From: Propionicimonas sp.
GTDB lineage: Bacteria > Actinomycetota > Actinomycetes > Propionibacteriales > Propionibacteriaceae
Assembly (NCBI RefSeq): GCF_029975155.1
Contig: NZ_JARKPQ010000273.1
Location: 1-49,755 of the forward strand
Direction: 5' to 3'
DNA length: 49,755 nucleotides
How positions within the stretch are numbered: the first letter of the stretch is position 1; every line of letters starts with the position of its first letter. This document shows positions 6,162 through 45,384 of the stretch, one piece after another. The translations under genes and the position numbers were made by a program. The notes under the pieces were generated by a model. The model saw only the letters and a program-made list of their open reading frames with translations. It searched no databases and was not told the origin of the DNA.

Positions 6162-7025
6162 CTACTCCTTCACAGTGATGGGGACGGACGGCGTGGCCGT
6201 CCAGCTGGCGAGCAGGGCCAGGCCCTCCGCGGACGGCGAGCCGGGCTCGGCGACGTAGGCGTTCAGCCGCAGCCCGGGATCGGCGGTCAGCTCCATGGAC
6301 TCGTACGTCAGGGTCAGGTCACCCACCAGCGGGTGGTGGAATTTCTTCACCCCCGTGCGGTGCTGCCGCACGTTGTGGGCGGCCCAGAGGGTGCGGAACA
6401 GCTCGCTGCGGGTGGACAGCTCCCCCACCAGCTGGGTGAGGCCCTGGTCGTAGGGGTTCTCGCCGGCCAGTGTGCGCAGCAGCGCGGCGGCCTCGCCGGC
6501 GACCTTCTCCCACTCGAGGAAGAACTCCCTCGCCGCCAGGTCGAGGAAGACGAAGCGGGCGACATTCGGCCGTCCGGGCATGGCCAGCACGGGTGCGTAC
6601 AGCGCCTGGCCGAGGGCGTTCGCGGCGAGGATGTCGGTACGGGCGTTGCGCACGTACGCGGCCGTCCCGGACATGGAGTCCAGCAGCCACTGCACAGGCG
6701 GACGGACGGTGCCCCGCCCCGTCCGCCGCGACGGCGCGCGCTCGTCCGCTGTCCTGGCGAGGTCGTGCAGATGTGCCCGCTCGGCCTCGTCCAGCTGCAG
6801 GGCGTTCGCGACGGCCTCCAGCACCGCCTCGGACGCGCCGCCCAGATTCCCCCGCTCCAGCCGGATGTAGTACTCGACGCTCACCCCCGCCAGCAGCGCG
6901 ACCTCCTCGCGGCGCAGGCCCTCGACGCGGCGCCGCTCACCCCAGGTGGGCAGCCCAGCCCGCTCGGGCGTGATCCGGGCTCTGCGGGTGCGGAGGAACT
7001 CCGCCGCGTCCTTCCGAACGTCCAT
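6162..7025 (-). CDS. MmyB-type XRE transcriptional regulator
   Basis: 287 aa. The N-terminal HTH (RRVEGLRREEVALLAGVSVEYYIRLERGN, about residues 31-59) is of the MmyB-type XRE group. A C-terminal MmyB-like ligand-binding domain follows (DILAANALGQALY, ELSTRSELFRTLWAAHNVRQHRTGVKKFHHP). It heads the operon with the cupin and AKR and probably responds to a small lipid-like or redox-related ligand. TAGCCT lies 7 nt before the ATG, consistent with a leaderless mRNA. It is paralogous to the genes at 20 and 36326. Confidence 0.9.
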   Translation of the reverse strand: MDVRKDAAEFLRTRRARITPERAGLPTWGERRRVEGLRREEVALLAGVSVEYYIRLERGNLGGASEAVLEAVANALQLDEAERAHLHDLARTADERAPSRRTGRGTVRPPVQWLLDSMSGTAAYVRNARTDILAANALGQALYAPVLAMPGRPNVARFVFLDLAAREFFLEWEKVAGEAAALLRTLAGENPYDQGLTQLVGELSTRSELFRTLWAAHNVRQHRTGVKKFHHPLVGDLTLTYESMELTADPGLRLNAYVAEPGSPSAEGLALLASWTATPSVPITVKE

Positions 7026-7210: not shown

Positions 7211-7822
7211 TCAGGCCGCGCGGGACGCGCCGGCGGCGGCGGCGAGCAGCAGCCGGTGGAACGCGGGTTCGCCGGTCAGCTCAGGGTGGAACGCGACACC
7301 GGTGACCGCACCGGAGCGGACGGCGACCACGTGTCCGTCCCTGGTTCCGAGCGCCTCCACGCCCGCGCCCATCCTGGTCACGACCGGCGCGCGGATGAAC
7401 GCCACCTCGACCCTGCCCAGCGCCGTGGCGAGGGTGGTCTCGGCCGAGTCCACCTGAGGGCCGAGCGCATTGCGGCGGACGGTCACGTCCAGCACCCCCA
7501 GCGACTGCTGCCCCGGCGCCGGGTCCTCCACCTCGGACGCCAGCAGCACCAGGCCCGCACACGTGCCGAGGGTCGGCACACCGGCCGTGATCGCCTCCCG
7601 CAGCGGCTCGAACAGCCCGAACATCCGCAGCAGCTTGTCGATCGCCGACGACTCCCCGCCCGGCAGCACCAGTGCGTCCACCCTGAGTCCGTCCGGTCCG
7701 AGCAGGTCGGACGGTGCGCGCACCAGCCGCGTCCGCGCACCGAGGTGCTCCAGCAACCGGACGTGCTCAGCGACCCCACCCTGCAACCCCAGGACGCCGA
7801 CGCTCGGCGTTGCCGCGCTCAC
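7211..7822 (-). CDS. pdxT: Pyridoxal 5'-phosphate synthase glutaminase subunit
   Basis: 203 aa. VGVLGLQGGVAEH opens the class-I glutaminase fold. PGGESSAIDKLL carries the PdxT signature, GTCAGLVLLA holds the catalytic Cys, and FHPELTGE contains the His-x-Glu of the triad. It hydrolyses glutamine and passes ammonia to PdxS. The GTG at 7822 is chosen because GGAGG lies about 8 nt upstream; the longer frame reads through a repeat palindrome. It lies downstream of pdxS in the same direction, separated by 109 bp that contain a 29-bp inverted repeat. Confidence 0.92.
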   Translation of the reverse strand: MSAATPSVGVLGLQGGVAEHVRLLEHLGARTRLVRAPSDLLGPDGLRVDALVLPGGESSAIDKLLRMFGLFEPLREAITAGVPTLGTCAGLVLLASEVEDPAPGQQSLGVLDVTVRRNALGPQVDSAETTLATALGRVEVAFIRAPVVTRMGAGVEALGTRDGHVVAVRSGAVTGVAFHPELTGEPAFHRLLLAAAAGASRAA

Positions 7823-7841
7823 GACCGCCGCCTCCGACCAT

Positions 7842-7909
7842 CGAACGCCTCCGTTCCGGTCAAACGCTCCAGCGCAGGCGGGAGCGTTTGACCGGAACGG
7901 TGGCGTTCG
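7842..7909. repeat. 29-bp inverted repeat between pdxS and pdxT
   Basis: The left arm 7842-7870 and right arm 7881-7909 are complementary over 29 bp with one mismatch, around a 10-nt centre. The arms contain CCGTTCCGGTCAAACGCTCC. Such length and perfection fit a mobile palindromic repeat. In RNA it would form a very stable hairpin that could reduce pdxT relative to pdxS. No second copy was seen in this window. Confidence 0.8.
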
Positions 7910-7931
7910 GTGACGGCGGCGGGGCCCATGC

Positions 7932-8837
7932 TCACCAGCCCCGCTCGGCCAGGCGGTGGGGAGCGGGCAGGTCGGCGACGTTGATCCCGACCATCGCCTC
8001 ACCCAGGCCGCGCGACGCCTCGGCGACCACCGCAGGGTCGTCGTAGCGGGCGGTCGCCGTCACGATCGCGGCCGCACGCGCCGCCGGGTTGCCGGACTTG
8101 AAGATCCCCGAGCCCACGAACACGCCGTCCGCGCCCAACTGCATCATCAGCGCGGCGTCCGCGGGAGTGGCCACACCACCGGCCGTGAACAGCACCACCG
8201 GGAGCGTCCCGGTCTCGGCCACCTCGCGGACCAGGTCGAGCGGCGCCCGCAGGTCCTTCGCCGCCACGTACAGCTCGTCGGGGTTGGCCTCGTAGGTGGC
8301 CCTGAGGACGGCGATCTCGTGCCGGATCGTCCGGATGTGCTTGGTCGCCTCGGACACGTCGCCGGTGCCGGCCTCACCCTTCGAGCGGATCATCGCCGCA
8401 CCCTCCGCGATCCGGCGCAACGCCTCACCGAGGTTCGTGGCCCCGCAGACGAACGGGACGGTGAACGCGTGCTTGTCGATGTGGTTGGCGTAGTCCGCCG
8501 GCGACAGCACCTCGGACTCGTCGATGTAGTCCACCTTCAGGTACTCGAGCACCTGTGCCTCGACGAAGTGCCCGATCCGGGCCTTGGCCATCACCGGGAT
8601 CGACACCGCCTCGATGATCGCGCTGATCAGGTCGGGGTCGCTCATCCGGGCCACACCGCCCTGGGCGCGGATATCGGCGGGGACGCGCTCCAGCGCCATC
8701 ACCGCCACCGCGCCGGCGTCCTCGGCGATCCGGGCCTGCTCGGGCGTGACCACGTCCATGATCACCCCGCCCTTCAGCATGTCGGCGAGTCCGCGCTTGA
8801 CCCCGGGAGTTCCGATGGTTGTTGTCATGGCCACCAT
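7932..8837 (-). CDS. pdxS: Pyridoxal 5'-phosphate synthase subunit PdxS
   Basis: 301 aa. The (beta/alpha)8 synthase makes PLP from ribose 5-phosphate, glyceraldehyde 3-phosphate and ammonia supplied by Pdx[29 protein letters not shown] (substrate Lys), [10 protein letters not shown] (second Lys) and [32 protein letters not shown] are all intact. Two in-frame ATGs lie 9 nt apart (8837, 8828). 8837 is preferred because a -10-like TATTCC ends 7 nt before it. 8828 remains possible with a weak GGTGG. Transcription diverges from pdxR. Confidence 0.93.
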
Positions 8838-8844
8838 GCTGGAC

Positions 8845-8902
8845 GGAATACTGGTCCAGCCCAAGATCCAGAACTGCCCGATTCTCGATGAACCAGTATT
8901 CT
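8845..8902. promoter_or_regulatory. pdxS/pdxR divergent promoter with PdxR-type inverted repeat
   Basis: GAATACTGGT (8846-8855) and ACCAGTATTC (8892-8901) are perfect inverted copies. Each contains a -10-like hexamer reading outward: TATTCC on the minus strand, 7 nt before pdxS ATG 8837, and TATTCT on the plus strand, 6 nt before pdxR ATG 8909. Both mRNAs would be leaderless, and a regulator bound to either repeat would cover the -10. Confidence 0.5.
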
Positions 8903-8908
8903 GCAGGG

Positions 8909-10321
8909 ATGCGCAGTACCCCCGAAATCACGCTCCCGTTGCGGCTGGATCGGACGGGCGCCGATCCGCTGCCCGGCCAACTCGCCGACCGACTCCGCGC
9001 GATGGCGATCGACGCCGTCCTCGCTCCTGGGGACACCCTGCCCTCCACCCGGGCGCTCGCCGCACACCTGGGCGTCTCCCGCGGCACGGTGGTGGCCGCC
9101 TACGACCAGCTGCTCGCCGAGGGCTACCTGAGCGCCGCGACCGGGCGCTCCACCGTGGTCAACCCGCACCTGCGCCGCGTCCACCCCCAACGGCCGCGGA
9201 TCTCCCGTCCGATGCCGCCCGAGCCCGCCCCCGCCTTCGACCTGCGGCCCGGCCGACCCTGGCCCGACGAGGTGGTCGGACCCGCCTGGAAAGCCGCGTG
9301 GCGCGAGGCGTCCGCAGCACCGGTGGAGGGGCCGCTCCCCGTGCTCGGGCTCCCCCGGCTGCGCCTCGCCTGGGCCGACCACCTGCGCCGGATGCGGGCT
9401 GTGCTGCGCGACCCCGCACAGATCGCCGTCACCGGGGGAGGACGCGAGGGCTTCGCCCTGATCCTGCTCGCGCTGGCCGGTGAGCGTCCGCTTCGTGTCG
9501 GCGTCGAGGAGCCGGGCTACCCGTCGCTGCGGCGGGTGCCGGCCCGACTCGGGGCGTCCGTGCTGGCGCTGCCGGCGGACGAGCACGGCCTGCGCGTCAC
9601 GGACCTGCCCACCGGCGCCGCCGCGCCCGACCTGCTCCTGGTCACGCCGAGCCATCAGTACCCGCTGGGCGGCTCGCTGCCGGTCGACCGCCGCCAGGCG
9701 CTGCTGGAGTGGGCGCGGGCGAACCGCGTGATCATCGTCGAGGACGACTACGACTCCGAACTGCGGTACACGTCCTCGCCGCTCCCCGCGCTCGCCGCGC
9801 TCGACGATCCCGAGGACGGCAACGTCGTCCTGCTGGGCACCCTGTCGAAGACGCTCACGCCGGCCCTGGGCATGGGCTTTCTCGCCCTCCCCGGGCGCCT
9901 GGTGCCGGCGGTCAGCGCCGCCCGCCGAGATCTCGGCCAGCCGGTCGGACTGGTCGCGCAGCGAGCCATCGCGACCTACCTCGAAGCGGGCGCGCTGCGG
10001 TTGCACACCCAGCGGATGCGCAACCGGTATCGCCGGCGACGCGCGCTGGTGGTCTCCGCGCTGAGCACCGTGCCCGGCGCACGTGTCTACCCGATGGACG
10101 GCGGCCTGCACGCGGTGGTGGAGACCGCACGGCCCGAGGCCGAGCTGGTGGCCGCGCTGGCTGCACACGGGGTGCACGTGAGCCCGCTGTCGGAGTACTG
10201 GTCGGGCAGCAGCACCCGCTCAGGCATCGTCTTCGGCTTCGGCGCCGTCAGCGACGCCGATCTGGCCGTCGCCCTCGACCTCATCGCGGCCGAACTCTCA
10301 CCCGCACGCATCGCTCCCTGA
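8909..10321 (+). CDS. pdxR: MocR-type PLP-responsive regulator of pdxST
   Basis: 470 aa. A GntR winged helix ([55 protein letters not shown], about residues 18-75) is fused to a fold-type I aminotransferase domain. Its PLP-binding Lys is in [15 protein letters not shown], with the Asp in [13 protein letters not shown]. MocR regulators of this position activate pdxST when PLP is low. ATG 8909 fits the domain start and the TATTCT box 6 nt upstream. Earlier in-frame starts overlap the promoter. Confidence 0.92.
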
Positions 10322-12269: not shown

Positions 12270-12782
12270 ATGGAACCCGTTGACCCTGCCTCGTCCCCTG
12301 CGGGCGATGTCGCTCCGGCCGACGGTGAGACACCGTGGCTCGACGACGAGGAGATGGCTGCATGGCTCGGTCTGGCCCGGCTCGTCTCCCGGCTGCCGGC
12401 CGAACTGGACCGCCAGCTGCAGCGGGACGCCGGCCTGTCGCACTTCGAGTACCAGGTGATGGCCGGACTGTCCCAGTCGCCCGAGCACACCCTGCGGATG
12501 AGCCGCCTCGCCGAGTTCGCCGAAGGCCAGCTGCCCCGCCTGTCGCAAGTCGTGGCCCGGCTCGAGAAGCGGGGCTGGGTGACCCGCCGCAGCGATCCGT
12601 CCGATGGCCGCTCCACTCTCGCGACCCTCACCGACGCGGGCATGGCGAAGGTCGTCGCCACTGCTCCCGGACATGTCGCCACCGTCCGGTCCTTCGTGTT
12701 CGACCCGCTCACCCGGGCGCAGGTGCGGCAGCTCCGCGACATCTGCCGGCGCGTCGGCGCGAGGCTGGGCGACACCTGCTGA
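12270..12782 (+). CDS. MarR family transcriptional regulator
   Basis: 170 aa. The winged helix spans about residues 55-115: LSHFEYQVMAGLSQSPEHTLRMSRLAEFAEGQLPRLSQVVARLEKRGWVTRRSDPSDGRSTLATLTDAG, with the DGR wing motif. The start is uncertain. ATG 12270 leaves the operator-like repeats upstream; ATG 12246 or TTG 12234 would put them inside the gene. It is divergent from doxX and likely represses it in response to a phenolic or oxidative signal. Confidence 0.88.
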   Translation: MEPVDPASSPAGDVAPADGETPWLDDEEMAAWLGLARLVSRLPAELDRQLQRDAGLSHFEYQVMAGLSQSPEHTLRMSRLAEFAEGQLPRLSQVVARLEKRGWVTRRSDPSDGRSTLATLTDAGMAKVVATAPGHVATVRSFVFDPLTRAQVRQLRDICRRVGARLGDTC

Positions 12783-12811
12783 GCGGAGGGCCGGGACGCC
12801 TTCGTCCGGCG

Positions 12812-12863
12812 GCCCTTCGTGACGCCGGACGGTTCGTTCCTCACCGGCCGGCTCCTCAGGGAA
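12812..12863 (-). repeat. Hairpin repeat, copy 2 (inverted)
   Basis: On the minus strand: CCCTGAGGAG, GCCGGCCGGT, loop GAGGAACGA, ACCGTCCGGC, CGTCACGAAGGGC. The stem pairs 9 of 10 positions and has a sequence unrelated to copy 1. It lies between the convergent marR and PPGK-like genes, where it could also act as a terminator. Confidence 0.7.
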
Positions 12864-12887
12864 CGGCGTGACGCCTTCGGCCAGTGC

Positions 12888-13718
12888 TCAGAGCAGGGCG
12901 TGGGCCTCGAAGGCGGCTCCGATGATGCCGCTGTCGTTCTCCATCCTGGCCCGGACGACCGGGGCCTCGATCTGCAGCAGCGGCATGAACTGGTCCGCGT
13001 CGTGGCTGATGCCGCCGCCGATGATCACCAGGTCGGGCCACAGCAGGCTCTCGGCGTAGGCGAGGTACTCCTGCAGTCGCGACACCCATTGCGCCCACGA
13101 CAGGTTCTCCCGGACGCGGGCCGCCGCGGACGCCCACGGGCAGCAGTCGAAGCCGTCGATGGTGAGGTGGCCGAGCTCGGTGTTCGGCACGAGGTGGCCG
13201 TCGATGAACAGCGCCGAACCCACGCCCGTGCCCAGTGTCACCACCAGCACCACGCCCGGGGCATCCCGGCCGGCACCGAGCGCCATCTCGGCCAACCCGG
13301 CCGCGTCCGCGTCGTTGAGGACGACCGCGGGCGTGCCGAGGGCTTCGGCGAACAGTGCGTCCGCGTCGGTGCCGATCCACGCCGGGTCGATGTTCGCCGC
13401 TGTCCGGACAACGCCGCCGCGCACCACCGCGGGCAGCGCCACGCCTACCGGCGCACCGGCCGGCACATCGGCGAAGTACTCGCGCATCTCCCGGACGGCC
13501 AGGGCCACCGCCTCCGGTGTCGCCGGCTGCGGGGTCGCGATGTAGTGGCGGGGTCCGGCCAGCAGACCGGTCTCGACGTCGACCGGCGCGCCCTTGATCC
13601 CGGTACCTCCGACGTCGATGCCAATGGCCAGTACGCCGACCGCATCGTCCCGGGCGGCAGCCGCCGTCCCGTCCGGCAGATGCGCCGGCAGTCCGGCCTC
13701 ATCGAGCGTCGTTGACAT
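12888..13718 (-). CDS. ROK-family sugar kinase, polyphosphate-glucokinase (PPGK) type
   Basis: 276 aa. [19 protein letters not shown] (phosphate motif), [56 protein letters not shown] and [13 protein letters not shown] match the PPGK layout closely. Such enzymes phosphorylate glucose with polyphosphate or ATP. The segment [12 protein letters not shown] replaces the charged stretch I expect after ELGH, so this may be a divergent paralogue. ATG 13718 has AAGGAA 7 nt upstream. It lies 43 bp downstream of the DeoR regulator and beside the glycyl radical enzyme locus, so the true substrate may be the sugar that the enzyme uses. Confidence 0.85.
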
Positions 13719-13761
13719 TCCGGTTCCTTCCACGGTGAAGCGAGTCGGAGCTGCGGGGCCG

Positions 13762-14520
13762 CTAGCCGGCCGGCACCTTCGCCACGGTCACGCCGGCCGC
13801 GGTGAGGTGCTCCTGCACGGGCTTGGGCAGATTGGTGTCGGTCACCACCCGGCTGACAGCGGCCGCGGGCAGCAGCGGCACCGCCCCGTGCCGCGGGAAT
13901 TTCAGCGATTCGGTGAGCACGATGACGTTGTCCGCCTGCTTCGCCATGGCCTTCACCACCGCCGCCCGCAAGTGGTTCCGTCCGGTGAAGCCGGATTCGA
14001 CGGTGTAGCCGTCGATGCCGATGAACAACTGCTCGACGTGGAAGTTGAGCAGGCACTGCTCCACCAGCGGACCGACCGTGACCTGCGACTCCGGCTGGTA
14101 GTCGCCGCCCAGCAGCACGACGGAAACGCCCTGCACCGCCCGGACGTAGTCGGCGATGAACGCGGAGTTGGTGACGATTGTCACTCCGCGCTTGGTCTTG
14201 GCGATCTCGTCCGCCAGCAACGCGCAGCAGGAGCCCGACTCGATCATCACCGTGCTGCCGTTGGGGACGAGATCAGCGGCGGCAGCGGCGATCCGGCGCT
14301 TGAGGTCGTAGTGGAACGCCAGCCGGCTGCGCAGGTTGTCGGGGGCGATCGACACCGCGTAGCCGTGCTGGCGCTGGATCAGTCCCTTCTTCTCCAGGTG
14401 GTCGAGGTCCTTGCGCACCGTGACCTGGGACACCGCGAACATCCCGGCGAGTTCGTTCACGTCGACACGTTCGTTGTCGATGACGTACTCGAGGATCTTC
14501 GAGCGTCGATCTCCCACCAT
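13762..14520 (-). CDS. DeoR/GlpR-family transcriptional regulator
   Basis: 252 aa. The N-terminal DeoR helix-turn-helix ([49 protein letters not shown], about residues 5-53) precedes a DeoRC sugar-phosphate sensor domain with the family IESGS, TIVTNS, LLGGDY and FIGIDGY motifs. DeoR-type repressors usually sense a phosphorylated sugar. It is divergent from the activase/glycyl-radical-enzyme operon and cotranscribed with the PPGK-like kinase, linking kinase product and enzyme substrate. ATG 14520 lies just inside the shared promoter region. Confidence 0.9.
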
Positions 14521-14541
14521 CGGCTCCTTTCACGGGCCGCG

Positions 14542-14580
14542 TTGACTGCGTAACGAATCTTAGTAGACTTACGTACGAAA
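14542..14580 (+). promoter_or_regulatory. Promoter and DeoR-type direct repeats before the glycyl radical enzyme operon
   Basis: TTGACT (14542-14547), 16 bp, TAGACT (14564-14569) is a good sigma-70-type promoter. GTAACGAA (14550) and GTACGAAA (14573) are near-direct repeats overlapping the spacer and the region just past the -10, where a DeoR repressor would block transcription. AAGGAGG (14601-14607), 8 nt before ATG 14616, is a very strong ribosome site. Confidence 0.5.
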
Positions 14581-14615
14581 CCTCAAGGCATTCAGATTGA
14601 AAGGAGGGGTCGCCG

Positions 14616-15395
14616 ATGGGCGAGGACGTCGGCCGGGTGTTCGACATCCAGAAGTTCTCGCTGCACGACGGCCCCGGCATTCGCACGGTGGTCTTCCTCA
14701 AGGGCTGCCCGATGGCGTGTGCCTGGTGCTCCAACCCGAACTCCCGCAAGCTGCAGGTACTGCAACTGCGGGACGCGAACGATCCGAACGTCTTCATCGC
14801 GGACAGCCGCGACTACGCGGTCGAGGAGGTCGTCCGGATCTGCCTTCAGGACCTGCCGTTCTACGAGGAGTCCGGCGGCGGGGTGACGCTCTCCGGAGGC
14901 GAGGCCATGGTGCAGCACCGGTTCGCCGCCCGTCTGCTCCGCAAGCTGCGGGCCAAGGGCGTGCACACCGCGGTCGAGACCACCGGCTACGCCGCCCCGG
15001 CCGTCTTCGAGAAGATCCTCGCGGAGGTCGACCTGCTGATCATCGACGTGAAGCACCATGACCGCAAGCTCCACCGGAAGTGGACGGGGGTCGCCAACGA
15101 CCTTCCCCTGCGCAACCTGGCCGCTGCCATTGACGCCGGCGGGCCTGTCCTCGTCCGGATACCGATCGTCCCGGGTGTCAACGACTCCCTTGAGGACGCG
15201 GCGGCCTTCGCCCGGCTGCTCACCCCGATCGGCGTCCATGAGGTCCAGTTGCTGCCGTTCCACCAGTTCGGCGAGCGCAAGTACGAGCTGCTCGACTGGG
15301 AGTACCGGATGGCCGGCGTACCCGCCCTCCACGAGGAGGACCTCGCCGCCCACGTCCAGTCCTTCGCCGACCACGGCGTCCATGCCTTCGTCTAG
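14616..15395 (+). CDS. Glycyl-radical enzyme activating enzyme (radical SAM), short form
   Basis: 259 aa. The radical-SAM cluster motif is C31-x3-C35-x2-C38 (CPMACAWC), preceded by the activase signature FSLHDGPGIRTVVFLKG; TLSGGEAMVQ and DVKHHD follow. It would generate the glycyl radical on the enzyme encoded 11 nt downstream. Activases of non-PFL glycyl radical enzymes usually carry a Cys-rich ferredoxin-like insert after the first cluster. Here the matching stretch (residues 39-75) has no Cys cluster, so only the catalytic 4Fe-4S site is visible, as in classical PFL activase. Oxygen-sensitive, cytoplasmic. Confidence 0.93.
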   Translation: MGEDVGRVFDIQKFSLHDGPGIRTVVFLKGCPMACAWCSNPNSRKLQVLQLRDANDPNVFIADSRDYAVEEVVRICLQDLPFYEESGGGVTLSGGEAMVQHRFAARLLRKLRAKGVHTAVETTGYAAPAVFEKILAEVDLLIIDVKHHDRKLHRKWTGVANDLPLRNLAAAIDAGGPVLVRIPIVPGVNDSLEDAAAFARLLTPIGVHEVQLLPFHQFGERKYELLDWEYRMAGVPALHEEDLAAHVQSFADHGVHAFV

Positions 15396-15406
15396 AGAGG
15401 AACACG

Positions 15407-17845
15407 ATGAGTTCACTGCTGGAATCGCCCGTCACCGTCGACGAGCCCCACTTCGGTCGCCTGACGCCGAGGATGGCTGCCTGGCGTGAGGAGTTGATGG
15501 AGACTCCCCAGTCGGTGTGCGTGGAGCGGGCGGTGCTCACCACCGAGACCTACCGGCTGCACCAGGACGAGCCGATGGTGCTGCGCCGGGCGCTGATGGT
15601 GCAGAACGTGCTGGAGAACATGAGCATCTTCATCGAGCCGGCCACGCTGATCTGCGGCAACCAGGCGTCGGCCAACCGGGCGGCGCCGATCATGCCCGAG
15701 TACGCGATGGACTGGGTGATCGCCGAACTGGACGAGTTCGACCAGCGCCCCGGTGACCGGTTCACGATCACCGAGCAGGCCAAGGACCAGCTGCGAAGCA
15801 TCGCGCCCTTCTGGGAGCACAACACCCTCAAGGACCGCGGGCTCGCGCTGATGCCCCCGGCCAGCCGGCAGTTCTACGACCTCGGCATCATTCATCCGGA
15901 GGGCAACATCACCTCCGGCGATGCCCACATCGCCGTCTACTACGAGCGGGTGCTCGCCGAAGGGCTCGCCGGCTACCGGGCGCGCACCGAGGCGCTGCTG
16001 GCGGGCCTCGACCTCACCGACGCCGAGCAGCTGAAGAAGTCCTCCTTCTACCGCGCGGTGCTGATCACGCTGGACGCGGTGATCGCCTTCGCTCACCGCT
16101 ACGCCAGTCTCGCCGCCGACCTGGCCACTACCGAGCCGGACGAGGCCCGCCGCGCCGAATTGCTCGAAATGAGCCGGATCCTGACCAAGGTGCCCGAGCA
16201 GCCGGCCGAGACCTTCCATGAAGCCATCCAGGCGGTCTGGCTGGTGCAGCTGTGCCTGCAGATCGAGTCGAACGGCCACAGCCTGTCGTACGGCCGGCTC
16301 GACCAGTACGTCCACCCGTTCTACGCCGCCGACCTGGCTGCCGGCCGGATCACCCCCGACCAGGCGACCGAACTGCTCACCAACCTGTGGCTGAAGACGA
16401 TCACGCTGGCGAAGATCCGCAGCTGGTCGCACACCCGGTTCAGCGCCGGGGGCCCGCTGTACCAGAACGTCACCGTGGGCGGTCAGACTCCGGAGGGGAA
16501 GGACGCAGTCAACCCCCTGTCCTGGCTGATCCTGAAGTCGGTGGCCCAGACCAAGCTGCCGCAGCCGAACCTCACCGTCCGCTACCACCGCGGGCTGAGC
16601 GAGGACTTCATGATGGAGTGCATCGAGGTGATGCGGCTCGGCTTCGGCATGCCGGCCATGAACAGCGACGAGATCATCATCCCGTCCCTGATCAGCAAGG
16701 GCGTCGCCGAGCAGGACGCCTACAACTACTCCGCGATCGGCTGCGTCGAGGTCGCCGTCCCCGGCAAGTGGGGCTACCGCTGCACGGGCATGAGCTTCCT
16801 CAACTTCCCGAAGGCGCTGCTCACCGCAATGAACAACGGGGTCGACCCGAAGTCGGGCGAGCCGATCGCCACGCCGGTGAAGCACTTCACCGAGATGACG
16901 GACTTCGACGAGCTGATGGCCGCCTGGGACGTCACCGTCCGGGAGTTCCAGCGCCACGCGGTCATTCTCGACTCCGCCGCCGACATCGCGCTGGAGGAGA
17001 ATGTCGCCGACATCCTCTGCTCGGCGCTCGTGGAGGACTGCCTGGGTCGCGGCAAGCCGATCAAGGAGGGCGGCGCGGTCTACGACTTCGTCTCCGGCCT
17101 GCAGGTCGGCATCGCCAACCTCGGCGACTCGCTGGCGGCGATCAAGAAGTGCGTGTTCGACGACCGCACGATCACGACCCAGGAGCTGTGGGACGCGCTG
17201 CTGGGCGACTTCTCCGGCGTCCGGGGGCAGGAGATCCAGGCGGCGCTGGCCAATGCGCCCAAGTACGGCAACGACGACGACGACGTCGACGGGCTGCTGG
17301 TGCGGGCCTACGCCACCTGCATCGACGAGGTCTTCGCCCACCACAACACCCGCTACGGCCGCGGCCCGATCGGCGGCGGCTACTACGCGGGCACGTCCTC
17401 GATCTCGGCGAACGTGCCGCAGGGCGCGTCCACGATGGCCACCCCGGACGGACGCAACGCCGGCCAGCCGCTCGCCGAGGGCTGCTCCCCCAGCCACGGC
17501 GCCGACACCCACGGGCCGACCGCGGTGTTCAAATCGGTCTCCAAGCTTGACACCGGACGGATCACCGGCGGCGTGCTGCTCAACCAGAAGGTCACCCCGC
17601 AGGTGCTGCGCAAGGAGGAGGACCGCAAGAAGCTGATCCTGCTGCTGCGGACGTTCTTCAACCGCCTCGACGGCTTCCACGTGCAGTACAACGTGGTCGA
17701 CCGCGCCACCCTGCTGGACGCCCAGGCGCACCCCGAGCGCCACCGCGACCTGATCGTCCGCGTGGCCGGCTACAGCGCGTTCTTCAACGTGCTGTCCAAG
17801 GCCACCCAGGACGACATCATCGCCCGCACCGAGCAGACCCTCTGA
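15407..17845 (+). CDS. Glycyl radical enzyme, YbiW/PflF-like
   Basis: 812 aa, full length. The catalytic Cys446 is in SAIGCVEVAVPGKWGYRC, followed by the conserved Glu448. The radical Gly788 is in LIVRVAGYSAFF near the C-terminus. RYGRGPIGGGYYAGTSSI and SPSHGADTHGPTAVFKSV are hallmark stretches. The sequence strongly resembles E. coli YbiW (810 aa) as I remember it, not pyruvate formate-lyase. YbiW has been reported to open the ring of 1,5-anhydroglucitol 6-phosphate to 1-deoxyfructose 6-phosphate. The same reaction is plausible but unproven here. GAGGA lies about 6 nt before ATG 15407. The partner aldolase is not in this window. Confidence 0.92.
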   Translation: MSSLLESPVTVDEPHFGRLTPRMAAWREELMETPQSVCVERAVLTTETYRLHQDEPMVLRRALMVQNVLENMSIFIEPATLICGNQASANRAAPIMPEYAMDWVIAELDEFDQRPGDRFTITEQAKDQLRSIAPFWEHNTLKDRGLALMPPASRQFYDLGIIHPEGNITSGDAHIAVYYERVLAEGLAGYRARTEALLAGLDLTDAEQLKKSSFYRAVLITLDAVIAFAHRYASLAADLATTEPDEARRAELLEMSRILTKVPEQPAETFHEAIQAVWLVQLCLQIESNGHSLSYGRLDQYVHPFYAADLAAGRITPDQATELLTNLWLKTITLAKIRSWSHTRFSAGGPLYQNVTVGGQTPEGKDAVNPLSWLILKSVAQTKLPQPNLTVRYHRGLSEDFMMECIEVMRLGFGMPAMNSDEIIIPSLISKGVAEQDAYNYSAIGCVEVAVPGKWGYRCTGMSFLNFPKALLTAMNNGVDPKSGEPIATPVKHFTEMTDFDELMAAWDVTVREFQRHAVILDSAADIALEENVADILCSALVEDCLGRGKPIKEGGAVYDFVSGLQVGIANLGDSLAAIKKCVFDDRTITTQELWDALLGDFSGVRGQEIQAALANAPKYGNDDDDVDGLLVRAYATCIDEVFAHHNTRYGRGPIGGGYYAGTSSISANVPQGASTMATPDGRNAGQPLAEGCSPSHGADTHGPTAVFKSVSKLDTGRITGGVLLNQKVTPQVLRKEEDRKKLILLLRTFFNRLDGFHVQYNVVDRATLLDAQAHPERHRDLIVRVAGYSAFFNVLSKATQDDIIARTEQTL

Positions 17846-17856
17846 CCCCACCACCC

Positions 17857-17892
17857 GGCGGTTCCTCAGGGACCGATGTCCTGCGAACCGCC
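17857..17892 (+). terminator. Stem-loop after the glycyl radical enzyme gene
   Basis: GGCGGTTC (17857-17864) pairs with GAACCGCC (17885-17892), starting 12 nt after the stop. The enclosed CAGGGAC and GTCCTG can extend the stem with a bulge. No T-tract follows. The loop carries CCTCAGGGACC, part of the dispersed hairpin-repeat family. Confidence 0.5.
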
Positions 17893-17967
17893 GGGAGGAT
17901 CCGCAAGCTCGATGCCGCTGGCGGACGGGGACTGCTTCGGCACGCCGTCGAGAATGCAGATCCTCCC
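17893..17967. repeat. GGGAGGAT...ATCCTCCC element, copy B (75 bp)
   Basis: Same termini as copies A and C, including GGGAGGATCCGC on the left and TGCAGATCCTCCC on the right, with a different interior. It directly abuts the preceding stem-loop. The gap 17846-18261 otherwise contains only repeats. Confidence 0.65.
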
Positions 17968-18024
17968 AACCCAACAGACCCACCCACCGCTCCCCGAGGA
18001 GCGACGCGTCACTCACCCCCCGAC

Positions 18025-18090
18025 GTCATCCCGGCGAACGCCGGGACCCCTGCACCGGTGTGACAACTCGACCCCGGGAGATCCCGGCCA
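18025..18090. repeat. GTCATCCCGGCGAACGCC repeat with degenerate second half
   Basis: A head hairpin (CCCGGCGAACGCCGGG) followed by CCCTGCACCG matches 27943-27975. The second half (CCCCGGGAGATCCCGG) is a degraded form of the tail seen at 27994-28022. Confidence 0.65.
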
Positions 18091-18261
18091 ATCTCGCTGA
18101 ACCGGGCGCCACAGGCTGGCGTTCGGCACGCCGTTCCGCTCTGAACGTTCCCCGTCTGGGCAGCCAGGAACCGGCCCTGAGAACGGCGCGCGCCCGTCCA
18201 CACCCATGATGTCCCGCGGTAACATCACGAGAGCCGAGAGTCCGGGGGCATCTTCGTTCGC

Positions 18262-19248
18262 TCAGCTCGCGCCCCACCTCGGACGGGCCGCCAGCGCGAC
18301 CCTGCCGAGCACGAGCAACACCACCACCTGCACGGCAAGCAGCGCCAGGTTCCACGCCGGCGCCAGCGTGCCGCTGATCGGGCGCAAGCTGAGGGTGCCG
18401 TTCAGCGGGGCGAGAGTGTTCCCCACCGACAGGATCATGGCTCTCGGATCCCACGGCCCGAGGATCGGCACCATCAGGTGGAAGGCCGTGAACGTGGCCA
18501 TCGGCGCGACCAGCGCACGCGTGAGCAGGCCGATCGAGACGCCGATGGCGCCGAAGTAGAAGGACGCGACAACCGCGAAGCCCGCCCAGGCTGCCGCCAC
18601 ACTCATACCAACGGCCTCCGGGATGGGCTCGAACACGTCCAGCGCGAGCGCGGACATCGTCGGGCCGCTGACGACCACTCCCCCGCACACGGCCGCGACG
18701 ACCGCCCCGATCACCGCCGCGACGCCGACCAGCCCGGCCGTCAGCGAGTACGCCAGCTCCAGGCTTCCCAGCCGGAACCGGACCGCCCGGAGCCGGATGG
18801 TGCGGTGCCGGAAGTCCTTCAGCGCGAGCGTGAGCCCGGCCCCGAACGCGACCAGCGGCGCGAGCAGGAACCCGGCCAGCTGAAGGGCGTTGGCCGAGTA
18901 GCCGGACGGACGCAGCATGCCCAGAGCCGTCCGCGCGCTCTCGTAGTCGTAGCGAAGCGGATTGTCGGTGCTCACCTGATTGCCATCGGACTCCACGTGC
19001 ATCGGAGCGTGGAGTTCGGTGTCGACATCCACCCCGCTCTCTCGCGCCTGCTGGAGCGTCTGGCGGAACTCCTCGTCCGCAGCGACCGCCGCCCCGCTCA
19101 GCGTCGGCACGGAGATCACCCCGACAGCGACGCCGACCAGCAGCGCCCACAGGAAGTAGCGCGACCACCAGGCAAACCCGATCTCGAGTCCTCCCGCGCG
19201 GAGCCGGCTCGGACGCCCGCTAGGACGCACGGCGGAGTCTGCCATCAC
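18262..19248 (-). CDS. ABC-2 type transporter permease
   Basis: 328 aa. One membrane span near residue 35 (YFLWALLVGVAVGVISV) is followed by an extracytoplasmic stretch and then about five spans (LAGFLLAPLVAFGAGLTLAL, AYSLTAGLVGVAAVIGAVVAAV, SVAAAWAGFAVVASFYFGAIGVSIGLLTRAL, a span near FHLMVPIL, and LALLAVQVVVLLVLGRVAL). This is the ABC-2 exporter topology with a large loop after span 1. The start overlaps the end of the ATPase gene by 29 bp, so the two were built as one exporter. Cargo unknown. Confidence 0.8.
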   Translation of the reverse strand: MMADSAVRPSGRPSRLRAGGLEIGFAWWSRYFLWALLVGVAVGVISVPTLSGAAVAADEEFRQTLQQARESGVDVDTELHAPMHVESDGNQVSTDNPLRYDYESARTALGMLRPSGYSANALQLAGFLLAPLVAFGAGLTLALKDFRHRTIRLRAVRFRLGSLELAYSLTAGLVGVAAVIGAVVAAVCGGVVVSGPTMSALALDVFEPIPEAVGMSVAAAWAGFAVVASFYFGAIGVSIGLLTRALVAPMATFTAFHLMVPILGPWDPRAMILSVGNTLAPLNGTLSLRPISGTLAPAWNLALLAVQVVVLLVLGRVALAARPRWGAS

Positions 19249-19823
19249 TCAGACTCACCACCTCGTCGGCAACCAGTTCGTAGAAGCGCGGATTATGACC
19301 GGCCAGGAGCACGGTCGGCCGCCAGGGCAACTGCCGGAGCAGCTCGGCCACCTGGCCGCGCATCCCCTCGTCCAGTCCGGCGTCGACCTCGTCGAGCAGG
19401 ACGTAGCGCGGACGGGACGAGAGGCACACGCCCAACGCCAGCCGCTTCCGCTCGCCCGCCGAGAAGCCCGCCACCCCGTCTGGCCAGGAGCTTCGGTCCG
19501 AGCTCGAGAGCAGCAAGGACGCCCTCGTCGCGCGCATCCCCGCCCAACAACGCGAGGTTCTGCGCGCCGGTGAGGCGTGGATAGACGACCGGCTCGTCGA
19601 ACACCACGCCCACCGACTCCCGCACGGCATCCAGCGGACGGCCGTCGAACAGCACGCTCCCGCCACACTCGTCCAGCCCGAGCAGGCAGATAAAGAGCGT
19701 GGTCTTGCCGGTTCCGTTCGGCGCCTGGATATGGGTCCTCATGCCGGTCGGAAACGTCCAGCTCAGCTGATCGAGAACAATCCGTGCTCCGTACCGTCGG
19801 GTGATGTCTCGCGCCTCAATCAC
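19220..19823 (-). pseudogene. ABC transporter ATP-binding protein, frameshifted
   Basis: The first part reads from GTG 19823 (MIEARDITRRYGARIVLDQLSW, Walker A APNGTGKTT, FDEPVVYPRLTGAQNL) and loses frame near 19475. The rest continues in another frame to 19220 (FSAGERKRLALG signature, YVLLDEVDAGLD Walker B, AGHN switch His). Removing one base from the four-C run at 19475-19478 restores LLARRVAGFSAGERKRLALG, a natural ABC sequence of about 200 aa. So this is either a recent one-base insertion or a base-calling error. If real, the exporter with the downstream permease is dead. Confidence 0.8.
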
Positions 19824-36146: not shown

Positions 36147-36312
36147 GGGTGTCTCTCCTTCTTGCCGGGCACTGGCACGGAACCCCGGTGCGTGGCGTCC
36201 ACCGCGGCCCGATCGCCCGAACGGTCTCCATGACACCTCGCAACGGCACGCGGTGGGAGTCTCTGCCGAAGGGCGTACTGGTAGAGCATCCCCCAGCCAG
36301 CGGTGGGCAACG

Positions 36313-36318
36313 TAGCGT
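36313..36318 (+). promoter_or_regulatory. Putative leaderless -10 (TAGCGT) of the third MmyB-type regulator
   Basis: TAGCGT ends 7 nt before the GTG at 36326, the same spacing as in the MmyB-type genes at 20 and 7025. Nothing else is seen in 36147-36312. Confidence 0.4.
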
Positions 36319-36325
36319 TGGCGCC

Positions 36326-37207
36326 GTGGACAACAGGGCAGAGGTGCGGGAGTTCCTGATGTCTCGGCGGGCGAGGCTGAGCCCCGAGCAGGCGGGGATT
36401 CCCGCCGCGGGAAGCCGTCGGGTCGTCGGCCTGAGGCGCAGCGAGGTGGCGATGCTGGCCGATGTCAGCATCGAGTACTACGCCAAGATCGAACGGGGAC
36501 ACCTCGCCGGGGTGTCCGACAACGTCCTGGAGGCGGTCACGCGTGCGCTGCGGCTCGATGATGCCGAACGCGAGTATCTGTTCGGCCTGGCGCGGGTCGC
36601 CCACGGTGGCGCGGAGCCGGTCAGGCGCCGCAAGCCGAAACAGTGGGTGGCCAGGGAGAGTCTCGTCCGCGCGCTGGACGCGGTCACGGCCGGGCCGGCG
36701 TTCGTCCGCAATGGCCGGATGGACATCCTGGCCACCAACCCGCTCGGGCGGGCGTTCTACGATCATGTGTTCGACGGGCCGGGACAGGGCAACCTGGCCC
36801 GGTTCAACTTCCTGGACGAGCGTTCCCACGACTTCTACCCGGACTGGAACGCCGCCGCGGACGTCACCGTCGCGATCCTGCGCACCGAAGCCGGCCGCGA
36901 CCCTCGTGACAAGCAGTTGCACGACCTGATCGGCGAGCTGTCCACCCGCACCGACGAGTTCCGGACCCGCTGGGGAGCCCACAACGTCCGCCGCCACGGC
37001 TCGGGGACGAAGAACTTCCGCCATCACCTGGTCGGCGACCTCACCCTGACCTACGAAGGCCTGGAACTGACCGCGGAGCCGGGACTGTCGTTCCTGATCT
37101 ACACCGCCGAGCCCGGCTCCGCCAGCCAGGAACGACTCGATCTGCTGGCGAGTTGGGCCGCCACCGAACGACCCAACGAGGTTCACCTCGGCCTGGTGGA
37201 CGGCTGA
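36326..37207 (+). CDS. MmyB-type XRE transcriptional regulator
   Basis: 293 aa from GTG 36326. HTH: RRVVGLRRSEVAMLADVSIEYYAKIERGH (about residues 31-59). The ligand domain shows MDILATNPLGRAFYDHVFDG, FNFLDERSHDFYPDW, LIGELSTRTDEFRTRWGAHNVRRHGSGTKNFRHHLVGDLTLTYE. It is the full-length form of the truncated protein at 20. It is divergent from CMD-DUF2255 and followed 8 nt later by an MFS exporter, so it probably controls both. An upstream ORF extension is not supported. Confidence 0.9.
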   Translation: MDNRAEVREFLMSRRARLSPEQAGIPAAGSRRVVGLRRSEVAMLADVSIEYYAKIERGHLAGVSDNVLEAVTRALRLDDAEREYLFGLARVAHGGAEPVRRRKPKQWVARESLVRALDAVTAGPAFVRNGRMDILATNPLGRAFYDHVFDGPGQGNLARFNFLDERSHDFYPDWNAAADVTVAILRTEAGRDPRDKQLHDLIGELSTRTDEFRTRWGAHNVRRHGSGTKNFRHHLVGDLTLTYEGLELTAEPGLSFLIYTAEPGSASQERLDLLASWAATERPNEVHLGLVDG

Positions 37208-42569: not shown

Positions 42570-43178
42570 TCAGGCCTTGGCGTCCTCGGTCTCCTGGGCT
42601 GCGCCCTCGGTGTCCGCGTCGACGGCAGCCGGGTCGGCGTCCGTGGTCTCGGCAACGGGTGCCTCCTCGACCACGACCTCCTCGACCGGTGCCTCCTCGA
42701 CCGGTGCCTCCTCGACCTTGTCGGCCTTCTTGGTGGCAGCCTTCCTGGCCGGTGCCTTCTTCTCCGCCGGCTCGGCCTTCTTGGCCGAGGCCTTCGCCTT
42801 TGCCTTGCGGGATTCCTCGACGCTCTCGGTGACGATCTCGATCACGGCCATGGGAGCGTTGTCGCCCTTGCGCGGCCCGATCTTGGTGATCCGGGTGTAG
42901 CCACCCTCGCGCTCGGCGAGCTTCGGGGCGATCTCGGTGAACAGGGTGTGCACGACACCCTTGTCCGTGACCGTCTGCAGCACGATCCGCCGGTTGTGCA
43001 GGTCGCCCCGCTTGGCCTTGCTGATCAGCCGGTCGGCCAGCGGCTGGACGCGCTTGGCCTTGGCCTCGGTCGTGGTGATCTTGCCATGCTGGAACAGCTG
43101 CGTGGCCAGGTTGGCCAGGATGATCCGCTGGTGGGCCGGGCTACCCCCGAAACGGGGCCCCTTGGTCGGCTTGGGCAT
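42570..43178 (-). CDS. rplQ: 50S ribosomal protein L17 with long C-terminal extension
   Basis: 202 aa. Residues 1-120 are a normal L17 ([49 protein letters not shown]). Beyond it lies an 80-residue Ala/Lys-rich then acidic tail with repeated EEAPVEE units, a common but variable actinobacterial addition. It is the last gene of the operon, 28 nt after rpoA, and is followed by a strong terminator. Confidence 0.95.
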
Positions 43179-43206
43179 TGTTCGCTATCTCCTGTATGGC
43201 GAGGGA

Positions 43207-44211
43207 TCAGTACGAGTCGTCGTAGTCGACGTCGGTGTCGTAGTTGGACAGGGCGCTCAGCGGGTCGAAGCCCGGCGAGCTGTCCTTGAGCGAGAGGCCC
43301 ATCTCGTGCAGCCGCAGCTTGACCTCCTCGATCGACTTGGAGCCGAAGTTGCGGATGTCCAGCAGGTCCTGCTCCGAGCGGGAGACCAGCTCGCTGACCG
43401 TGTGAATGCCCTCGCGCTTGAGGCAGTTGTAGCTGCGCATGGTGAGCTTCAGCTCCTCCACCGGCAGGGCGAGGTCGGCGGCCAGCTGCTCGTCGACCGG
43501 GGACGGGCCGATCTCGATGCCCTCGGCGTCCACGTTCAGCTCACGGGCGAGGCCGAACAGCTCGACCAGCGTCTTGCCGGCCGACGCCATGGCGTCCCGC
43601 GGCTTGATCGAGGGCTTGGTCTCCACGTCCACGACCAGCTTGTCGAAGTCGGTGCGCTGCTCGACGCGGGTGGCCTCCACCTTGTAGGTGACCTTCAGCA
43701 CCGGGGAGTAGATCGAGTCGACCGGGATCCGGCCGATCTCGGCGTCCGGGTTCTTGTTCTGGACGGCGGAGACGTAGCCACGGCCGCGCTCGACGACCAG
43801 CTCCATCTCCATCCGGCCGGTCTCGTTCAGCGTGGCGATGTGCAGGTCGGGATTGTGCACCTCCACCCCGGCGGGCGGGGCGATGTCGGCGGCGGTGACC
43901 GCACCCGCGCCGGACTTGCGCAGGTACATCACCACCGGCTCGTCCTCCTCGGAGGAGAGCACGAGCTGCTTGAGGTTGAGGATGATCTCGGTCACGTCCT
44001 CGACAACCCCGGGCAGGGTGGAGAACTCGTGCTGGTTGCCCTCGATCCTGATGCTGGTCACCGCCGCGCCCGGAATGGACGACAGCAGGGTCCGGCGCAG
44101 CGAGTTGCCGAGGGTGTAGCCGAAGCCGGGCTCCAGCGGCTCGATGACGAACCGGGAGCGGAACTCGTCGACGACCTCTTCGGTAAGGATCGGGCGCTGT
44201 GCGATGAGCAT
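43207..44211 (-). CDS. rpoA: DNA-directed RNA polymerase subunit alpha
   Basis: 334 aa. N-terminal assembly domain ([39 protein letters not shown]), linker, and C-terminal DNA/activator-binding domain ([58 protein letters not shown]). The alphaCTD is intact. It follows rpsD after a 126-bp gap that contains an 18-bp palindrome. Confidence 0.98.
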
Positions 44212-44290
44212 TCTTCTGTTTCTTCCTCTCCACCGCCCGCTATATGACGGTGACTGGTTGCCCCGGACGCCCTGCCCGGAGCGGAGTGTT

Positions 44291-44328
44291 CCCTGAGCTT
44301 GACGAAGGGGCCTTCGTCAAGCTCAGGG
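44291..44328. repeat. 18-bp-arm palindrome between rpsD and rpoA
   Basis: CCCTGAGCTTGACGAAGG (44291-44308) and CCTTCGTCAAGCTCAGGG (44311-44328) are perfect arms around GG. This resembles a dispersed GAGCTTGTCGAAGGG-type repeat known to me from other genomes. It lies inside the operon and could attenuate transcription or protect mRNA ends. Confidence 0.75.
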
Positions 44329-44337
44329 GCCGAAGGC

Positions 44338-44943
44338 TTACTTCGAGTAGAGCTCGACGATCAACTGCTCGGCGACGTCGATGACGATCTGCTCGCGGAC
44401 GGGCAGCTGGTGCACCAGGATCCGGCCCTTGTTGGGACGGACGGTCAGCCAGCCCGGCACGACCCTCTCGTTGTGGGTCTCGCGAGCCACGACCAGCGGG
44501 TACACGTTCATCGACTTCGGCTTGATGTCGATCACGTCGTAGGCGCTCACCCGGTAGCTCGGGACGTTCACCTTCTTGCCGTTGACCATGAAGTGGCCGT
44601 GGACGACCAGCTGCCGGGCCTGGCGACGGGTGGACGCGAGGCCCGCCCGGTACACGACGTTGTCGAGGCGGGACTCGAGGATGATCAGCAGGTTGTCACC
44701 GGTCTTGCCGGACAGCCGGTTGGCCTCCTCGTAGTAACGGCGGAACTGCTTCTCGAGCACGCCATAGGCGTAGCGGGCCTTCTGCTTCTCCTTGAGCTGC
44801 AGCAGGTACTCGCTCTCCTTGGTGCGGCCGCGGCCGTGCATGCCCGGGGGGTACGGACGGTGCTCGAAGGCCTTGTCGTTGCCCACCAGGTCGGTGCCGA
44901 GCCGGCGGGACTTCTTGGTGATGGGGCCGGTGTAACGGGCCAT
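44338..44943 (-). CDS. rpsD: 30S ribosomal protein S4
   Basis: 201 aa. MARYTGPITKKSRRLGTDL is the actinobacterial S4 start. An S4 RNA-binding domain is in RLDNVVYRAGLASTRRQARQLVVHGHFMVNGKKVNVPSYRVSAYDVI. No zinc Cys cluster is present near the N-terminus, i.e. a C-minus form. S4 autoregulates the alpha operon in some bacteria. Order rpsK-rpsD-rpoA is conserved. Confidence 0.97.
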   Translation of the reverse strand: MARYTGPITKKSRRLGTDLVGNDKAFEHRPYPPGMHGRGRTKESEYLLQLKEKQKARYAYGVLEKQFRRYYEEANRLSGKTGDNLLIILESRLDNVVYRAGLASTRRQARQLVVHGHFMVNGKKVNVPSYRVSAYDVIDIKPKSMNVYPLVVARETHNERVVPGWLTVRPNKGRILVHQLPVREQIVIDVAEQLIVELYSK

Positions 44944-44967
44944 GGTTCTCTCCTCTTCGGCTCAGGA

Positions 44968-45384
44968 CTAGACGCGACGGCGCTTCGGCGGACGGCAACC
45001 GTTGTGCGGCACCGGCGTGACGTCGGAGATCGGACCGATCTCCAGGCCGACGGCGCCGAGCGAACGGATCGCGGTCTCGCGGCCGGAGCCGGGACCCTTG
45101 ACGAAGACGTCCACCCGCTTCATGCCGTGCTCCATGGCGCGGCGGCCCGCGGCCTCGGCGGCCATCTGGGCGGCGAACGGGGTGGACTTGCGGGAGCCCT
45201 TGAAGCCGACGGTGCCGGCGGAGGCCCATGAGATCACGGCACCCGTGGGATCGGTGATCGAGATGATCGTGTTGTTGAACGTGCTCTTGATGTGCGCCTG
45301 ACCGGCGACCACGTTCTTCTTTTCCTTGCGACGCACCTTGCTCTTGGCGTTCTTGGCGCTCGCACTGCGGCCTGCAGTAGCCAA
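44968..45384 (-). CDS. rpsK: 30S ribosomal protein S11
   Basis: 138 aa. A basic N-terminal extension precedes the S11 core ([80 protein letters not shown]). It is normal in length and position, between rpsM and rpsD. Confidence 0.97.

Follow-up and report, generated by a model that had tools for sequence, protein, structure and literature searches.

An inducible anaerobic module for the use of the glucose analogue 1,5-anhydroglucitol (1,5-AG) is probably encoded by a four-gene locus of Propionicimonas sp.; judged from sequence, we give this whole picture a probability of about 0.7. The locus spans positions 12,888 to 17,845 of the window, by which we mean the whole stretch of DNA that was analysed, an entire contig of 49,755 bases (G000:C153) from an assembly of 5.0 Mb in 404 contigs that is rated 100% complete and 8% contaminated. 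Its open reading frames (ORFs) encode a ROK-family kinase, a DeoR-family regulator, a radical-SAM activase and a full-length glycyl radical enzyme, and all four were found exactly where an earlier reading made from the letters alone (the sequence-only reading) had placed them, with the families and the catalytic residues Cys446 and Gly788 that it had named. Locus orthologs of 79-93% identity occur in 5 of 59 other genomes (60 were searched, including that of the window), so the locus is conserved and not a product of chance. Its features are as follows.

12888..13733, reverse strand: ROK kinase of the polyphosphate/ATP-glucokinase type, proposed 1,5-anhydroglucitol 6-kinase (281 aa, GTG start; NF045942, PDB 1woq)
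Codon from 13718, reverse strand: possible alternative start of the kinase, an in-frame ATG
13140..13142, reverse strand: codon of kinase Cys198 in the loop FDCCPWAS, aligned with the Glu of the DAE motif in canonical polyphosphate glucokinases
13762..14520, reverse strand: DeoR-family regulator, presumed repressor sensing a phosphorylated ligand (PF08220, PF00455)
14542..14569, forward strand: sigma-70-like promoter TTGACT-16-TAGACT for activase and enzyme, the only match in 12700-18100
14567..14582, no strand: palindromic operator candidate ACTTACGTACGAAACC, overlapping the -10 hexamer and recurring in relatives
14616..15395, forward strand: radical-SAM activase, short form, 259 aa, with CxxxCxxC and no cysteine-rich insert
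15407..17845, forward strand: YbiW-type glycyl radical enzyme, 812 aa, predicted 1,5-anhydroglucitol-6-phosphate lyase from identity, tree and signature
16742..16744, forward strand: codon of the catalytic Cys446
17768..17770, forward strand: codon of Gly788, the radical site in the RVAGY loop

The glycyl radical enzyme is highly probably a YbiW-type lyase. It is the sole PF02901 match in its assembly, possesses PFL-like and Gly_radical domains with both the radical loop RVAGY and the thiyl Cys446, and scored 926.2 bits against TIGR01774 (cut-off 678.2). Its identity is 52% to E. coli YbiW (802 columns) and 37% to PflD. In the PDB, an entry that bears the name formate C-acetyltransferase scored best (6xs4, 887.7 bits), with two YbiW entries at 882.2 bits, glycerol dehydratase at 603 and PflD at 474. 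In a quick maximum-likelihood tree of 102 enzymes, which left out L087 and L199 as duplicates of L057 and L088 and carries long-branch warnings among the outgroups and a chosen outgroup that is not one side of a branch, the window enzyme and YbiW fall in one 81-row clade (SH-aLRT 99) with PflD outside. Two branches make up the clade: YbiW lies in one of 27 rows, and the window enzyme in one of 54 rows, together with Actinomyces, Spirochaetes, Firmicutes and Coriobacteria. The signature WGYRCTGMS, after the active Cys, is present in 76 of the 81 clade rows, the window included, and in 1 of 21 outgroup rows (L134, the nearest outgroup). The identity, the signature and the position in the YbiW clade apart from PflD thus agree with the YbiW likeness that the sequence-only reading had seen, and the refuting outcome that it named first, a phylogeny with the enzyme in some other clade, did not occur. 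Pocket-region motifs are largely common to the window enzyme and YbiW in a comparison of sequence motifs, and near-invariant positions private to the clade are few (10 of 188, tolerating up to 3 of 21 outgroup rows and leaving out the partial rows L195, L197, L121 and L110). YbiW opens 1,5-anhydroglucitol-6-phosphate (1,5-AG6P) and PflD the mannitol epimer, both yielding 1-deoxyfructose-6-phosphate from substrates phosphorylated beforehand by the phosphotransferase system (PTS), as stated in an excerpt of PMC12441222 citing Ma et al. 2024; the reaction that the sequence-only reading had given for YbiW is therefore in print.

Three further observations concern this enzyme family. G005 has a second glycyl radical enzyme gene that starts past the activase (L057 7003-7827), is 33% identical to the first and is cut by the contig end; the G138 enzyme ortholog (L196 470-2905) carries one in-frame TGA; and a plasmid collection holds DNA of 64-67% similarity, annotated as glycyl radical protein, in Klebsiella, Escherichia and Enterococcus records filed as plasmids, some of which are chromosome-sized.

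The kinase belongs to PF00480, passes the polyphosphate--glucose phosphotransferase model NF045942 (310.6 bits, cut-off 250) and has as its closest solved relative the Arthrobacter polyphosphate/ATP-glucomannokinase 1woq (263 bits), with which, as with canonical polyphosphate glucokinases, it has the NDADAAG and ELGH motifs in common. Its enzyme-linked relatives are 55-83% identical. A canonical polyphosphate glucokinase, 47% identical, is encoded in the same genome at C257, separate from the locus, so the window kinase is not needed for glucose. The loop after ELGH reads DAE, or at least AE, in the canonical copies and 1woq, and its Glu is kept in all 25 canonical polyphosphate glucokinase paralogs examined, whereas Cys takes its place in all 10 enzyme-linked copies of this type (DCCPW in 8, as in the window; NACFW in the 2 Arachnia-type copies). 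In 30 other ROK genes from seven relatives (30 of 64 matches, with L221 and L227 read by pattern, being unaligned), the matching motif GCxE has 25 Glu, 3 Asn, 1 Gly and 1 Ala; bg_L221, bg_L227 and L157_797 were left out of the ROK tree. An excerpt of PMC10031466 describes Asp187 of NagK as engaging the sugar 1'-OH, and one of PMC10465942 assigns recognition of the C1 hydroxy group to Asp141 in MurK, which is more distant. From the order of motifs, the lost Glu would occupy the position of NagK Asp187, and if this match is right, such kinases would fit a hexose that has no C1 hydroxyl, as 1,5-AG is. We therefore lean toward the window kinase being a dedicated 1,5-AG kinase.

The same acid has been lost beside YbiW-type enzymes in a second ROK subfamily, which differs from the window kinase in possessing the zinc motif and in replacing Glu by Met. 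A motif scan of the named loci yielded 14 zinc-type ROKs, 10 of which carry Met at the acid position and lie 12-2005 bases from an enzyme; their sources are Treponema, Spirochaetaceae, Lachnospiraceae-type genomes, Alkalibaculum, Christensenella, Bacteroidales and Leptolinea, the last with an enzyme placed just outside the 81-row clade. The acid is kept in the other four, L157, L147 and, with Glu and 6-7 kb off, L115 and L164. A profile from seven Met-type ROKs, run on the genomes behind 48 of 80 named loci and thus on enzyme-carrying genomes only, returned 28 zinc-type ROK loci: 16 with Met, 15 of them no more than 1.5 kb from a module gene (in one case from a DeoR only), 11 with Glu, none beside a module, and 1 with Asn, likewise not beside one. 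Six of the 16 Met loci were new, and 5 of these adjoin a module gene. Over all loci the association of Met with the module has a Fisher p of 9e-7, a value that ignores that the Met kinases form one clade; the sound count is consequently two independent losses in two subfamilies. These patterns make it slightly better than an even chance that the 1,5-AG route is fed by kinases from two ROK subfamilies, drawn in on at least two occasions and discarding the C1-hydroxyl acid each time (Glu to Cys, Glu to Met). As a separate observation, four genomes (L252, L253, L268, L269) seem to hold a second YbiW-type enzyme (partial, 58-67% identity) with its own Met-type ROK.

A close enzyme is carried by 12 of 198 Propionibacteriaceae genomes, that of the window included. 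Ten of the 12 have the kinase next to the enzyme or elsewhere on the same contig; in the remaining two, the kinase search was limited to the enzyme contig, which is shorter than 5 kb. In the sister genus g7 (L058 and L194), kinase, DeoR, activase, an Fsa aldolase and the enzyme share one contig, by which the 1,5-AG reading is well supported. The Fsa of L058 has 37% identity with E. coli FsaA and scored 291.9 against the aldolase model NF009299 (cut-off 214), and in E. coli itself fsaA adjoins ybiY-ybiW. Fsa splits 1-deoxyfructose-6-phosphate into glyceraldehyde-3-phosphate and hydroxyacetone, and Fsa and GldA reportedly finish the YbiW pathway in the 2024 work of Ma and colleagues. Within 6 kb of the enzyme, the 81 clade loci contain Fsa in 48 cases, a DeoR-family match in 44 and an activase in 68, and restricting the set to the 62 loci flanked by 2.5 kb or more on each side gives 41, 34 and 56 (tblastn at 1e-6; some DeoR matches may represent different members of this large family). 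Fsa is nearby in 28 of the 54 rows of the window branch and 20 of the 27 rows of the YbiW branch. Fsa-length matches were obtained in 5 of the 12 carriers, and the one in G010 passes NF009299 and lies on a different contig from the close enzyme. The module can be incomplete: the kinase was the sole module gene found next to the enzyme of G011, and the two Arachnia-type genomes gave no activase in the stretch around theirs. In G010 (G010:C62; L055, L056), the genes for enzyme, activase/DeoR and kinase lie scattered across some 27 kb, interspersed with apparent sugar ABC transporter and Gfo/Idh/MocA oxidoreductase genes, where upstream 1,5-anhydrofructose chemistry is possible.

The genes of the window form two divergent units that share a promoter region, as the sequence-only reading had described: the gap between DeoR and activase is 95 bp and contains the sole sigma-70-like promoter match in 12.7-18.1 kb, with 0.3 expected. 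The regulator is composed of HTH_DeoR and DeoRC domains, and the palindrome overlapping the -10 box would be its operator. Versions of this palindrome precede DeoR/activase in relatives and recur ahead of the enzyme or Fsa where these stand apart (partly by eye, from shared 8-mers), with looser versions in G010, also partly by eye. Allowing up to 3 mismatches, the palindrome occurs at 2 places in the genome of the window, one being this locus, at 5 sites in G035 (exact in the DeoR/activase gap, with 2 mismatches in the Fsa/enzyme gap) and at 3 sites in G082, 2 of them in the module. The reversed control pattern gave 0, 0, 0, 1 and 1 sites in the own genome, G035, G082, G010 and G016. These results suggest one regulon in the window, G035 and G082. 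Sites considered as further regulon members, at C80 of the own genome (3 mismatches) and at C64 and C3 of G010, precede no convincing gene and were rejected.

The activase is a radical-SAM protein that passes TIGR02494 (267.5 bits, cut-off 174.35). It has 259 residues and 4 Cys in total, in contrast to the 299 residues of YbiY, which has a long insert at that place. Among 59 clade activases measurable by the motif script (9 others, E. coli YbiY among them, fell outside this measurement), the segment from CxxxCxxC to GG.T.SGGE is bimodal: 19, the window included, are short (at most 51 residues, 0-2 Cys), 40 are long (at least 87 residues, 3-9 Cys) and none lies between. According to an excerpt of the review PMC6325248, PFL and GRM5 activases are likewise devoid of the ferredoxin-like insertion that most others have, so the short window activase is unusual and not unique. 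Such compact activases provide material for studying why many activases of this kind bear extra iron-sulfur clusters.

In the pathway that we propose, the ROK kinase would phosphorylate 1,5-AG at O6 with ATP or polyphosphate, and 1,5-AG6P or a downstream sugar phosphate would release DeoR from the palindrome at 14567-14582, as its position and conservation suggest. By analogy with its family, the activase would place the radical on Gly788, from which it would move to Cys446, and the enzyme, to judge from its YbiW clade, would open the C-O ring bond of 1,5-AG6P, in a radical reaction sensitive to oxygen, to give 1-deoxyfructose-6-phosphate. In g7 the adjacent Fsa would then cleave this product to glyceraldehyde-3-phosphate and hydroxyacetone, following the chemistry given above.

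Among the other explanations, the same chemistry could act on another 1,5-anhydrohexitol 6-phosphate, such as a mannitol, galactitol or 2-amino analogue, given that the window enzyme is placed in the 54-row sister branch and not among the 27 rows around YbiW and that the closest solved kinase is a glucomannokinase, which makes a mannose-like configuration possible. We consider this unlikely: PflD, the known 1,5-anhydromannitol-6-phosphate enzyme, belongs to another tree group, so that a PflD-type lyase was rejected for the window, the pocket-region motifs are largely those of YbiW, and Fsa is found near the enzyme on both branches. It is next to negligible in probability that the enzyme is a pyruvate formate-lyase, a glycerol or propanediol dehydratase or a choline lyase. 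All of these are of the same superfamily, but the scores lie far under the cut-offs for pyruvate formate-lyase (TIGR01255, 166.1 versus 994.2 bits), the choline lyase CutC (519 versus 1050) and hydroxyproline dehydratase (531 versus 1100), PDB scores favour YbiW over glycerol dehydratase, and Asp447 of glycerol dehydratase, which we take to be a functional residue, aligns with Gly461 of the window enzyme. On profile scores, PDB scores and the tree, we rejected the diol dehydratase, pyruvate formate-lyase and PflD readings.

Metabolite repair, in which the enzyme opens 1,5-AG6P made by chance by glucokinases and the species needs no aldolase, would account for an own genome in which no Fsa was found; it is very unlikely, because a kinase linked to the enzyme and altered at its sugar site would raise the amount of the phosphate, and the sister-genus module includes Fsa. 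A shade less probable still is that the kinase is an ordinary glucokinase paralog merely beside an unrelated anaerobic enzyme. It does exceed the cut-off of the glucose-specific NF045942, yet linkage in 10 of 12 carriers, the second, canonical copy in the genome and the loss of the acid in 10 of 10 linked copies all argue otherwise.

Several observations weigh against the 1,5-AG module and its parts. The sequence-only reading had expected the Fsa-type aldolase to lie elsewhere; an aldolase does join the module in the sister genus, but neither a close query at E 1e-15 nor a PF00923 search found Fsa in the own genome. None was found in 6 of the 11 other carriers either, two of them about 80% complete, and other genomes of the family, not among the 12 carriers, have Fsa as well (e.g. 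many of genus g34), so it is not specific. With completeness rated at 100% and contamination at 8%, an assembly gap may account for the missing Fsa. The proposed search for gldA turned up two own-genome iron-type alcohol dehydrogenase (Fe-ADH) genes over the cut-off that pass no NCBIfam model and are not GldA by the NCBI model (C312, 42.3 bits versus a cut-off of 336; C176, not listed), with two weaker matches outside the comparison. No PTS or sugar transporter family was found among the ten ORFs flanking the locus, to which that search was limited. For the kinases, the match of Cys198 to the 1'-OH acid relies on sequence alignment and motif order, with motif order as the link to Asp187, a residue that is itself not conserved in one NagK (PMC10031466, excerpt). 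The L157 ROK keeps Glu 1.1 kb from its enzyme, in a genome that also has a Met-type kinase beside a DeoR; the L147 ROK keeps Asp 2.1 kb from its enzyme, beside a Met-type ROK; and at L099 a linked kinase-like gene is without the motif. Ten of the 16 Met loci were known beforehand, 7 of them as profile sources, and the Met-type kinases are a single clade. Finally, at up to 3 mismatches the palindrome has no site in G016 and 2 sites in G010, none of them in the module.

Candidates for a substitute aldolase were sought among the three PF00923 matches of the own genome, which are a transaldolase (NF002881, 517.9 versus a cut-off of 367), a 369-aa transaldolase-like protein and a weak 455-aa match. 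The divergent 369-aa protein at C207 was rejected as unspecific, since 76 of 197 family genomes have it and many of these lack the enzyme; it adjoins an iolD-like gene (by eye). The 455-aa protein at C145 matched no NCBIfam family and was likewise rejected, and no comparable match is listed among the other carriers. Its gene (L062 3650-7519) lies near DhaL-like and HAD-like genes, as seen by eye.

Elsewhere in the window, 3 of the 10 ORFs flanking the locus are without any family match. On the reverse strand, 18262-19823 holds a membrane-protein-like gene with no Pfam match and an ABC ATPase gene (PF00005 over residues 17-108 of 176 aa) that is seemingly split across two frames near 19450 (ORFs 19220-19666 and 19293-19823), by a true frameshift or an assembly error. 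The stretch 42570-45384, also on the reverse strand, encodes proteins that resemble ribosomal L17, RpoA, S4 and S11 by eye and would make the contig chromosomal. Vitamin B6 genes SNO (PdxT-like) and SOR/SNZ (PdxS-like) with a divergent MocR-like PdxR regulator (NF052282, 437 bits, cut-off 320) occupy 7211-10321, and a pair of paralogous proteins with 54% identity is encoded at 6162-7025 (reverse strand) and 36149-37207 (forward strand).

Compared with E. coli YbiW/YbiY/FsaA, the window module is alike in the clade and signature of its enzyme, in the adjacent activase and, in the sister genus, in the adjacent Fsa; it differs in having a DeoR and a kinase, in its short activase and in an own genome where no Fsa was found. 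Where the YbiW pathway relies on PTS uptake and phosphorylation, the locus has a linked ROK kinase with a changed sugar-C1 site, with the ten flanking ORFs as the scope of this comparison. E. coli PflD/PflC with the frwBCD PTS resembles it in superfamily and reaction type and differs in its adjacent PTS genes, in its tree group and in sequence, at 37% identity. The earlier interpretation is well supported by these sequence comparisons. The enzyme, the reaction type and the partnership with an activase were already known; the kinase-linked actinobacterial form and the twice-lost acid are new, as far as the open-licence literature shows. In that literature we found no paper joining anhydroglucitol with a glycyl radical enzyme and none joining Propionicimonas with glycyl radical, and a co-mention of polyphosphate glucokinase and anhydroglucitol concerns, in the excerpt available, other kinases.

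An excerpt of PMC12441222 describes a human neutropenia in which 1,5-AG and its phosphate play a part, so a specific pair of kinase and lyase could serve as an assay or removal tool. If the proposal is true, the twice-lost acid would be a sequence signature for anhydro-sugar kinases, testable at the residue level for 1,5-AG kinases, and the radical opening of anhydro-sugars would extend to the Propionibacteriaceae, fed by a kinase.

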